NCBI GenBank assembly: GCA_024399015.1
Contig: JAKSIC010000010.1
Span: forward strand, 1 to 64,000
Source: Fibrobacter sp.
GTDB lineage: Bacteria; Fibrobacterota; Fibrobacteria; Fibrobacterales; Fibrobacteraceae
Reading direction: 5' to 3'
Length of the DNA stretch: 64,000 nt
The notes beneath the pieces were generated by a model. The model did not search any database. It was given only the letters and a program-made list of their open reading frames with translations, and had not been told where the DNA came from. Shown piece after piece: positions 16,390-19,557 of this stretch. Position numbers and translations under genes: made by a program. Positions within the stretch are counted from its first letter, which is position 1. Each line of letters starts with the position of its first letter.

Positions 16390-17271
16390 TTATTCCAAAG
16401 GAGCGCCCGGTTGGTAGCCTAAATCACGGAAAGCTGCATCTATGGACGGGTTTGCATCGTAAAGGAACCCTGCCAAGGCCTGTTCCGCCGTTACAGGCTT
16501 GCCTCCGATCCAACTTTTCAAGACCGCAAGTTTGCGGGAAATCCACCAGGGAACGGGAACCATCACATGGTGCATCTTGTTTTCGCGAAGGACCGCCTGG
16601 GCCATTTCTGCCATGGTCATGGATTTTGAACCAGCCAGAGCGTAGGTTTTGCCCACGGCGTGTTCGGAGAGGCCTGCGACAGCAATTCCCTGCACCAAGT
16701 CCACGCTGCGGACGGGGCGCTTGAGGCACTTTCCGCCACCGGGCATGAAATAAACCGGGAAGCGTTTGACATAGCTTGCGAACATCTTGAATTCGATGCC
16801 GCCGCCATCGCCGATTACAAGGGTGGGACGAACGATGGTCCACTGGAGGCCATGCTTCTCCCCCGCTTCCTTCACGATGGATTCGCTCTTCAGTTTACTC
16901 TGACCGTACTCCGTAAGCACCGGGTAGGTCACGGAAATGCTGGAAACATAAAGCAGGCGCTTTACGCCTGCAGCGATGGCGGCATCAACCACATTACGGG
17001 TACCGCCAGCATTGATTCTGTCAAAAGAACCTTTCTTAGTAGAAAGAAGAATTGCAGCCAGATGATAGACCAGATCTACGCCACGAAAAGCCTCTACCAA
17101 AGTTTCGGGCTTTGTAACGTCGCCGTAGAAGACCTGGACTTCCTTCGGCAAAGCATTCACCAGAGTATCGCCCGGAAGCGTAAGAACGCGCACACACACA
17201 CCGCGTTGCAGAAGCTCCCGGCACAGCGCCTTCCCTACGACGCCGGCACCTCCAGTCACCAAAGCAAGCAT
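16390..17271 (-). CDS. NAD(P)-dependent epimerase/dehydratase family protein
   Basis: This 293-residue protein is an extended short-chain dehydrogenase/reductase. The Rossmann nucleotide-binding motif TGGAGVVG lies at residues 6-13, and the catalytic YxxxK appears as YGQSK near residue 125, with the preceding Ser in LLYVSSIS. VYHLAA is the usual strand-4 motif. Likely substrates are a nucleotide sugar, a sterol-like alcohol or a quinone-linked compound; this cannot be decided here. It starts two bases after the dnaA-like stop at 17274, so it is probably co-transcribed with that gene, an unusual pairing without an obvious functional link. Confidence 0.82.
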   Translation of the reverse strand: MLALVTGGAGVVGKALCRELLQRGVCVRVLTLPGDTLVNALPKEVQVFYGDVTKPETLVEAFRGVDLVYHLAAILLSTKKGSFDRINAGGTRNVVDAAIAAGVKRLLYVSSISVTYPVLTEYGQSKLKSESIVKEAGEKHGLQWTIVRPTLVIGDGGGIEFKMFASYVKRFPVYFMPGGGKCLKRPVRSVDLVQGIAVAGLSEHAVGKTYALAGSKSMTMAEMAQAVLRENKMHHVMVPVPWWISRKLAVLKSWIGGKPVTAEQALAGFLYDANPSIDAAFRDLGYQPGAPLE

Positions 17272-17273
17272 TG

Positions 17274-18752
17274 CTAGGCTTCCAGCAAATACTGGATATC
17301 TTGGACCTTTTGCAAAAGGCTTTCGTCCTCATCCATTTGCTTTTTGATAGACCGAATGGCGGCGATAACTGTGGCGTAATCGCGATTGAACATTGCTCCA
17401 ACGTTCTGCAGGGATTCAGTTGTCATTTCACGGCAGAGGTACATGGCGACCTTACGAGGCAGAGATGCCTTTGCATCCTGACGCTTGCTAGCGAGAACAA
17501 CCATGTCCACACCGAATTCTGCAGCAACAACTTCGGAAATGCTCTTAGGAGTAATTTCACCGACGCTAGAAGTCTCGTTTGTGCTCAGCAAACGCTTAAC
17601 AGTCTGCAAGTCAAGATTCTGCTGACAGAGATCGTTCATTGCACCGAGAGTCACCAAAAGGCCTTCAAGAACACGGAAGTTCTGGCGGGGCGGAATGGAG
17701 AGGAATCGGCAGATTTCTTCACGATCGCGGTCCACGAAAGGAATCTTTTCGGACTTCTGCTGAATCAAGCGCATTCTGGTGTTGAGGTCCGGTTCATCCA
17801 AGCCCACAGCCACGCAGGAATCCAGCGGAGCCAGCAACTTGGAAGAAATGCAGGGAACGCCTGCGCTCACCTTGGACTTGAAATCAGCTTCGTCTACAGC
17901 GCGGGTAAACTTGGACGGATGACGGTCGCAGGAAATCACCACCTGCTTACCGTGATCACGGAGATGACGGATAAGGATGGCCAAACGTTCCTGAGTGGTA
18001 ATACCGCGTTCAATAAGCTGAACGTCGTCCAACAAAAGAATATCGCAGTTTTCGTACTTGTCCTGGAAAGCCTGGGCAAGTTCGCGAACATTACCGGTCT
18101 TGAACTTGAGAGCCTTAGCCATGGCGGTAGCGTCGCGCAAGAAATCGTAGGCGTGGCAATAAACCACGTTGGTCTGGGGCTTGCTCTTCTGCATACGAGC
18201 GGCAATAGCCTGCAGCAAATGGGTCTTGCCCAAGCCGGAATTGCCATACACGAACAGCGGATTCAAAGACGGATCGCCCGGATTCTCGGCAACGGACTTG
18301 CAGGCCCTAAGGGCTGTGGAATTGCAGTCACCTTCGATGAACTTTTCGAAGGTATAGCCAGCGTACAATTTGAGTCTAGGCTTTGCAGCAACACGAGCCT
18401 TGGGCTTTACGCGGGCAATGGGCGGAAGCGCAGGGGCAACAGGCGCAGAAAGCTTCATTTCAGGAACATCGGACTGCGCCGTCTGGCGAATCTTGTAATC
18501 CTTGAAATCAGAACCAAAGACAGAAGCAAAGGATTTGCGCAAAATGGCGCCATAATGAGCATTAACCCAGTTCTGACGCAATTCATCAGGAACAGTAAGC
18601 AAGGCGTAGCCGTCGCAAAAACCTTCGAACCCTACCGCATCAAGAATGGTAAGGCCAAAATAGTCGTTACATTCGGCACGTACGAGTGACAACACCGACT
18701 CCCACGGTGAAGTTACTACATCTAATATAGAAACCGTATTCGACACGAACAC
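17274..18752 (-). CDS. Divergent DnaA-like replication initiator ATPase
   Basis: This 492-residue protein has the DnaA layout: domain I (about 12-85), a linker, the AAA+ domain (about 118-340, Walker A GNSGLGKTH, Walker B LLLDDVQ, sensor I VISCDR, sensor II NFRVLEG) and C-terminal domain IV (about 385-480). Two features depart from canonical DnaA. In box VII the arginine-finger segment EDRLxSRF is replaced by SSKLLAPL. The DnaA-box recognition motif GGRDHTTV is one residue shorter and reads NRDYATV. No dnaN, recF or gyrB is nearby, so it may be a paralogue rather than the main initiator. The start is GTG without a clear RBS, so it could shift slightly. Confidence 0.82.
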   Translation of the reverse strand: MFVSNTVSILDVVTSPWESVLSLVRAECNDYFGLTILDAVGFEGFCDGYALLTVPDELRQNWVNAHYGAILRKSFASVFGSDFKDYKIRQTAQSDVPEMKLSAPVAPALPPIARVKPKARVAAKPRLKLYAGYTFEKFIEGDCNSTALRACKSVAENPGDPSLNPLFVYGNSGLGKTHLLQAIAARMQKSKPQTNVVYCHAYDFLRDATAMAKALKFKTGNVRELAQAFQDKYENCDILLLDDVQLIERGITTQERLAILIRHLRDHGKQVVISCDRHPSKFTRAVDEADFKSKVSAGVPCISSKLLAPLDSCVAVGLDEPDLNTRMRLIQQKSEKIPFVDRDREEICRFLSIPPRQNFRVLEGLLVTLGAMNDLCQQNLDLQTVKRLLSTNETSSVGEITPKSISEVVAAEFGVDMVVLASKRQDAKASLPRKVAMYLCREMTTESLQNVGAMFNRDYATVIAAIRSIKKQMDEDESLLQKVQDIQYLLEA

Positions 18753-19113
18753 CCAGATAGTAGAAATGAGAAAAAAGACAATGCAAAAGTTAAGTAAAGC
18801 CTCCCGAAAGAGGCCCTTTTTTTTGAAAAAACTTTTTAATCGTGGTTTTTAGGCTAAAAACGGCAAATATTTTTTATTCCCATTTTGTGTCCCCAACTAT
18901 ACAGTTACTCACGCATTTAGTAACTATGGAACCAAACAAGCATCCCTATGAATTCCACAACTTATCAACGGAAAAATTTTGAACCATGGGTTGACAAAAA
19001 AACGGGTAATTTTTTGACGTCGGAAAACTTGCGAAATTCTTATAAACAAAAAAAATCGCCCTTTTTAGACGAATTTAAGCACTTTTTTATATAAGTCGTT
19101 GAAAATCAATTAG
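18753..19113. other. A+T-rich 361-bp intergenic region upstream of the dnaA-like gene
   Basis: No gene is supported here. The region is A+T-rich, with many A and T runs. I searched both strands by eye for the DnaA box TTATNCACA and found only weak matches (for example TTATCAACG near 18963). A hairpin with a plus-strand T-run lies at 18799-18824. It probably holds the dnaA-like promoter; an origin is not supported. Confidence 0.5.
18799..18824 (+). terminator. Hairpin with T-run on the plus strand upstream of the dnaA-like gene
   Basis: Stem GCCTC/GAGGC with a six-base loop, followed by two C and eight T on the plus strand. No plus-strand gene ends here, so it may stop a transcript antisense to the dnaA-like 5' region. 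On the minus strand the tail is poor in T, making it a weak end for the gene at 19114. Confidence 0.5.
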
Positions 19114-19557
19114 TTACAACTTAGTCTGTTTTTCCTGGAGTTCATTCAGTTTTTGGTCCAGTTTCTGGTCCAGCATTTTCTCGATTTCGGGAAGGAGGCG
19201 TTCCTTGATACGATCGAGATAAAGGCACTGGAGCTGGATCATACGGCTGCGGTGACGGCTGGCGTTTTCCTGGATCCAACGGCTCACCGCCATCTGACGG
19301 TCCTGCATCTTTTCCTGGAGGGTCTGACGGATATAGGTTGTCTGAACCGCCATGTAGCGCTGCATGTTGAAAGGCAGGCGATAGGTGCGGATGAACTGCT
19401 TCAGGACCTCCAGCAAAGAGAGGTGATGAGACTGGCGATCCTGAATGAACTTTCTAAGATCTTCGAGGTGATTCTCGAAGAACGGAATGATAGCTTCATC
19501 ATCAATCTGATAAAGTTCCAGTTCACTCTGTTTCTTTGTAGCTTCGTCGGCTGCCAT
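19114..19557 (-). CDS. Hypothetical cytoplasmic coiled-coil protein
   Basis: This 147-residue protein has no signal peptide or membrane segment and is mostly helical. The N-terminal part is acidic (EATKKQSELELYQIDDE) and the C-terminus is a likely coiled coil with a small internal repeat (MLDQKLDQKLNELQEKQ). I do not recognise the family. It starts 20 bases after the stop of the U32-family gene and ends at the A+T-rich region before the dnaA-like gene. Codon use looks like that of its neighbours, which supports a real gene. Confidence 0.65.
   Translation of the reverse strand: MAADEATKKQSELELYQIDDEAIIPFFENHLEDLRKFIQDRQSHHLSLLEVLKQFIRTYRLPFNMQRYMAVQTTYIRQTLQEKMQDRQMAVSRWIQENASRHRSRMIQLQCLYLDRIKERLLPEIEKMLDQKLDQKLNELQEKQTKL

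Follow-up and report, generated by a model that had tools for sequence, protein, structure and literature searches.

Results

The 64,000-nucleotide stretch of Fibrobacter sp. DNA analysed in this study (the window) contains a gene, here designated dnaA2, whose product has the four domains of a DnaA protein (Table 1). The homology covered both the ATPase domain (PF00308, 139 bits) and the helix-turn-helix domain (PF08299, 73 bits), both above the cut-off, and the protein scored below the TIGR00362 equivalog cut-off (310.2 versus 343.9 bits). A GTG codon at position 18746, which would yield a protein of 490 aa, was favoured over the annotated start of the open reading frame and is probably the true start because it is invariant in relatives. 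The gene was indeed found beside an epimerase, as first described, and the order U32 peptidase, small protein, dnaA2 and epimerase was kept in the genus and in part also in two sister genera. A small protein of 147 aa (window positions 19114-19557) had no family match and was present upstream of dnaA2 in most of the Fibrobacter genomes examined.

Table 1. Features of dnaA2 and its surroundings in the window, and the predicted replication origin of the same genome
Feature	Position	Strand	Description	Basis or remark
dnaA2	17274..18752	-	492 aa, DnaA paralogue with domains I-IV	Pfam Bac_DnaA and Bac_DnaA_C; tree
Domain I (aa 18-67)	18552..18701	-	weak DnaA_N match	W kept at E. coli W50
Walker A (PLFVYGNSGLGKTHLL, aa 165-180)	18213..18260	-	GKTH invariant in 34 genus copies	alignment
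Walker B (LLLDD, aa 239-243)	18024..18038	-		alignment
Sensor I (QVVISCDRHP, aa 270-279)	17916..17945	-		alignment
Genus-specific insert, sensor I to box VII (within aa 280-301)	17850..17915	-	predicted strand-helix-strand	alignment
Box VII replacement (SSKLLAPL, aa 303-310)	17823..17846	-	Pro309 at arginine-finger position	
Sensor II (NFRVLEGLL, aa 358-366)	17655..17681	-	Arg kept	alignment
Basic loop (LASKRQ, aa 420-425)	17478..17495	-	Gln425 at E. coli R399	
Shortened recognition motif (NRDYATV, aa 456-462)	17367..17387	-		alignment
NAD-dependent epimerase	16390..17271	-	conserved neighbour	start 2 bases past dnaA2 stop
DnaA-box-like site ACTTATCAAC(GG)	18960..18969	+	upstream of dnaA2	6 genome copies; core conserved in genus
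Predicted oriC	G000:C24:17258-17610 (L180:9259-9611)		353-bp intergenic region beside parAB	roughly 28-30% GC

Alignment to E. coli DnaA confirmed the original prediction that DnaA2 retains Walker A, Walker B and both sensors (I and II), and the residues of the ATP pocket (K178, D235/D236, D269 and R334 in E. coli numbering) were all present. The loss of the arginine finger was likewise borne out: the box VII segment reads SSKLLAPL, with Pro at the position of R285 (the arginine finger) and Lys at that of R281, and other residues of the AAA+ interface have also been lost. In the AID (AID-1/AID-2), R227 is replaced by Glu and L290 by Val, and about 17 residues are inserted between sensor I and box VII. 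In domain IV, the recognition motif GGRDHTTV has become NRDYATV, which is one residue shorter, as had been read from the sequence. The residues contacting the DnaA box, R399, R432, D433, H434 and T435, correspond to Q, R, D, Y and A/S in DnaA2, with only R432 and D433 kept. Moreover, the finger was absent from all 34 Fibrobacter DnaA2 copies compared, each having Pro for R285 and Lys for R281, and the motif in its place, S.KLL[AT]P[LI].SCVAVG, was conserved in 34 of 34. The loss is thus no sequencing error and no drift of a single strain.

DnaA is normally encoded by a single gene copy. The same genome, however, carries exactly one further DnaA (DnaA1), on another contig, which is canonical in its box VII (LSDRLVSRF) and recognition motif (GGKDHSTV); the protein of 443 aa cleared the TIGR00362 cut-off with 469 bits. 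The gene in the window is therefore a paralogue, as had been proposed. The search suggested at the outset, for a second dnaA next to dnaN, thus yielded the second dnaA but not the expected neighbour, as the DnaA1 gene also lies away from dnaN.

In a phylum survey, 161 of 167 Fibrobacterota genomes had a DnaA match, and at least two matches were counted from the survey table in 144 of the 167 and in 87 of the 89 near-complete genomes. In a midpoint-rooted tree of 63 sequences, whose rows had been assigned to the first or the second copy in advance, the DnaA2 rows were monophyletic (support 99/98) and came from eight families of the phylum, which places the duplication at the base of Fibrobacterota or close to it. 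Judging from these sequences, DnaA2 is ancient, vertically inherited and phylum-wide in Fibrobacterota. Most early DnaA2 branches keep the arginine finger (LLSRF, IINRF), which was lost about five times within DnaA2 and never within DnaA1, and the residues that replaced it differ among the losses (P, H, A, I and Q). The H434 position is Tyr in nearly all DnaA2 rows and Phe in one, with His kept in two (G150 and G166). Among the DnaA2 rows, only those of Fibrobacter and two sister genera have R399 changed to Gln, and these genera also share the order of dnaA2 and the epimerase. In addition, the DnaA genes of one genus of the family (genus g4; G051 and G055, loci L109 and L110) have diverged strongly, with altered sensor residues and with stop codons interrupting the matched frame, and the DnaA of one Fibrobacterota genome (L022, G020:C198) grouped with that of a MAG carrying the label Cytophagaceae (L070), by contamination or transfer.

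The dN/dS values were 0.07-0.24 for dnaA2 and 0.01-0.10 for dnaA1, and 170 positions were invariant across the 34 genus copies of DnaA2. By these estimates, dnaA2 is faster-evolving than dnaA1 yet under clear purifying selection. A structure model of DnaA2 built from 35 sequences had a mean pLDDT of 86. Modelled domain III superposed on DnaA domain III with an rmsd of 1.8-1.9 A, and modelled domain IV on that of the E. coli DnaA-box complex with an rmsd of 0.8 A over 93 residues. Furthermore, the insert before box VII was modelled as an ordered strand-helix-strand.

In a complete relative (G144), the GC skew turned at about 1.42 Mb, and the only dense DnaA-box cluster among the sampled stretches was found at this turn, immediately following parB and the genes for an M23 peptidase and a bactofilin; dnaA1, dnaA2 and dnaN were all located away from it. 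The corresponding intergenic region of the window's genome (Table 1) was taken as the predicted oriC. The cumulative skew minimum of the fetched stretch falls inside this region, and the surrounding gene order recurs in 12 other Fibrobacteraceae genomes, among them G144. In several genomes other than the window's, the lowest local skew was found up to several kb from the predicted oriC. The skew and the box clusters thus point to the parAB side, and an origin beside dnaA2 or dnaA1 was rejected. Because the predicted oriC lies beside parAB, away from both dnaA genes, the distance of dnaA2 from dnaN and recF, which had been offered as a distinguishing mark, is uninformative. In another Fibrobacter genome (G101:C1, about 1.26-1.53 Mb), both dnaA genes lay about 0.2 Mb from a plus-to-minus GC-skew turn, near the likely terminus.

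The predicted oriC carries ordinary boxes (TATTCAC, TATCCAC) together with a repeated TTTTCAAC(A), both far above shuffled expectation. An exact composite oriC pattern was too strict, with 0 matches even in its own genome. Sites of the TTTTCAACA type were strongly enriched in Fibrobacter predicted oriC regions and poor in the oriC of G057 and G152, and ATGTTGAAAA occurred in 37 copies in the genome, so sites of this type are not confined to oriC. For these reasons TTTTCAACA as an oriC-specific DnaA2 site is no more than an idea.

The original prediction had seen no clear DnaA box upstream of dnaA2. This did not hold, as the site ACTTATCAAC lies there (Table 1), and three of its six copies in the 3.34 Mb genome are upstream of a dnaA gene, one at dnaA2 and two at dnaA1; two further copies are upstream of nrdD and one is elsewhere. 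The genome total is about the chance level, and the placement is the notable part. Across the genus set, the region preceding dnaA2 retains the core TTGATAA. The two sites at nrdD, which encodes the anaerobic ribonucleotide reductase, are separated by 124 bp (L223:6588-6721). E. coli DnaA regulates its own gene and nrdAB, and the paired nrdD sites suggest a DnaA regulon resembling the latter.

Discussion

Taken together, DnaA2 is probably an ATP-binding, assembly-defective DnaA that acts as an accessory protein or regulator beside the canonical DnaA1. In E. coli, the arginine finger meets the ATP of the neighbouring molecule and is required for assembly, and the bases of the box are read by Arg399 (TTA, from the minor groove) and by the recognition helix (TnCACA) (PMC5742627). 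When the finger is mutated, the DnaA proteins of E. coli, T. maritima, B. subtilis and others still bind ATP, and also a single box in the cases tested, but do not unwind DNA (PMC10316083, PMC8287927), so by analogy DnaA2 should not open oriC alone. With the finger and other DnaA-DnaA interface residues gone (R281K, R285P, L290V and R227E), DnaA2 would most likely form no ATP-DnaA filament that opens oriC. DnaA2 keeps its nucleotide pocket, its domain I and the fold of domain IV. The protein probably binds ATP, and its domain IV would bind oriC and/or the DnaA-box promoters of dnaA1, dnaA2 and nrdD. Moreover, the DnaA2 pocket may accept the arginine finger of DnaA1 and yet offer none in return, by which DnaA1 filaments could be ended or modulated. 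A new site preference arising from R399Q, H434Y and T435A/S, as originally raised, is plausible.

Several points weigh against this explanation. E. coli R399A and T435M abolish specific DNA binding (PMC5742627), and by analogy the changes at R399 and H434/T435 could do the same in DnaA2. The conserved replacement motif means that a different interface could have taken the place of the finger. In addition, the finger is still present in many DnaA2 relatives from outside the genus, so whatever role the family has in common does not depend on losing it.

The loss of the finger and interface residues, the DnaA-box-like sites at three promoters and the distance of dnaA2 from the predicted oriC would also fit a protein that is purely a transcription factor, acting at promoters and not at oriC and needing ATP only in order to fold. 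This account is possible but unlikely, since the nucleotide pocket is kept phylum-wide, domain I is kept as well, and the promoter boxes may belong to DnaA1. Quite improbable is a working co-initiator, in which the S.KLL[AT]P[LI].SCVAVG motif and the insert would form a new contact for assembly with DnaA1 at oriC. The conservation of that motif in 34 of 34 copies, the predicted order of the insert, the second repeated motif TTTTCAAC(A) beside ordinary boxes in oriC, and a domain I helix-3 aromatic kept in DnaA2 and lost in the DnaA1 of the same class are all in its favour. However, box VII has no Arg, the finger was lost repeatedly with varied replacements, which looks like relaxation, and the TTTTCAACA-type sites occur outside oriC and are poor in the oriC of G057 and G152. 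The faster evolution of dnaA2 and the loss of key residues could also be read as a decaying duplicate or pseudogene. This is highly improbable, as it is contradicted by the intact frame in the listed genus copies, by the phylum-wide presence, by the 170 invariant positions and by the kept ATP-site motifs with a dN/dS of about 0.1-0.2, well below 1. Equally remote is the possibility that DnaA2 initiates the replication of a plasmid, a prophage or a second replicon that has entered the chromosome; the presence of a second, divergent DnaA is in its favour, but the conserved chromosomal synteny and a tree that follows the phylum contradict it.

The two proteins also differ in domain I. In the class containing Fibrobacter, the helix-3 residues around E. 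coli F46/W50 have been lost from DnaA1, whereas most DnaA2 proteins retain an aromatic at W50; the basic loop of DnaA1 in this class (L003:8153-9484; GRGTKE) is longer by one residue. In E. coli, F46 contacts the helicase, a contact demonstrated for that species only (PMC5448010), and DciA has been reported in Fibrobacter (PMC5109545), which leaves a division of labour possible and speculative. It is doubtful, on present evidence, that the two proteins share initiation in this way, with DnaA1, which has the finger but not the usual domain I patch, opening the DNA, and DnaA2, which keeps domain I and forms no filament, reading the second class of oriC box (TTTTCAACA). If so, reciprocal losses since the ancient duplication would have made DnaA1 and DnaA2 mutually dependent.

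The arginine finger of DnaA has been described as invariant (PMC8287927). A phylum-wide DnaA2 that has lost it repeatedly and kept the ATP pocket therefore forms a natural separation-of-function series, which allows one to ask which DnaA tasks require filament assembly and how a bacterium with two DnaA proteins runs initiation. The predicted oriC and the boxes at dnaA1, dnaA2 and nrdD make this question testable in the cultivated F. succinogenes. Our literature search, from which subscription papers were largely absent and which is no proof of novelty, found no account of the losses in DnaA2, of the clade spanning the phylum or of the predicted oriC, and dnaA goes unmentioned in the genome paper of F. 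succinogenes. A 2011 survey had already listed two dnaA genes in Chlamydia, Desulfovibrio, Pirellula, Fibrobacter and others, by gene number only (PMC3080875). No earlier description of the DnaA2 features themselves was found.

Among known systems, DnaA2 shares with canonical DnaA (TIGR00362) the four domains, Walker A/B, the sensors and the helix-turn-helix domain, and the predicted folds superpose. In contrast, it has neither the finger nor any Arg in box VII, is altered in AID-1/AID-2 and at R399, H434 and T435, and falls below the family cut-off. E. coli R285A, T. maritima R251A and B. subtilis R264A, which are also missing the finger, serve as models for the expected defect; these are laboratory mutants of a sole initiator, whereas DnaA2 is natural, conserved and accompanied by an intact DnaA. 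The Thermotoga maritima DnaA also has a recognition motif one residue shorter (FNRSHPVV) and reads a non-standard box, ACCTACCAC, but this protein is an active initiator whose finger, R251, is in place. Hda is, like DnaA2, a DnaA-derived AAA+ protein, and it regulates DnaA; unlike Hda, DnaA2 possesses domains I and IV, and its Hda score was 63 against a cut-off of 194.8 bits.
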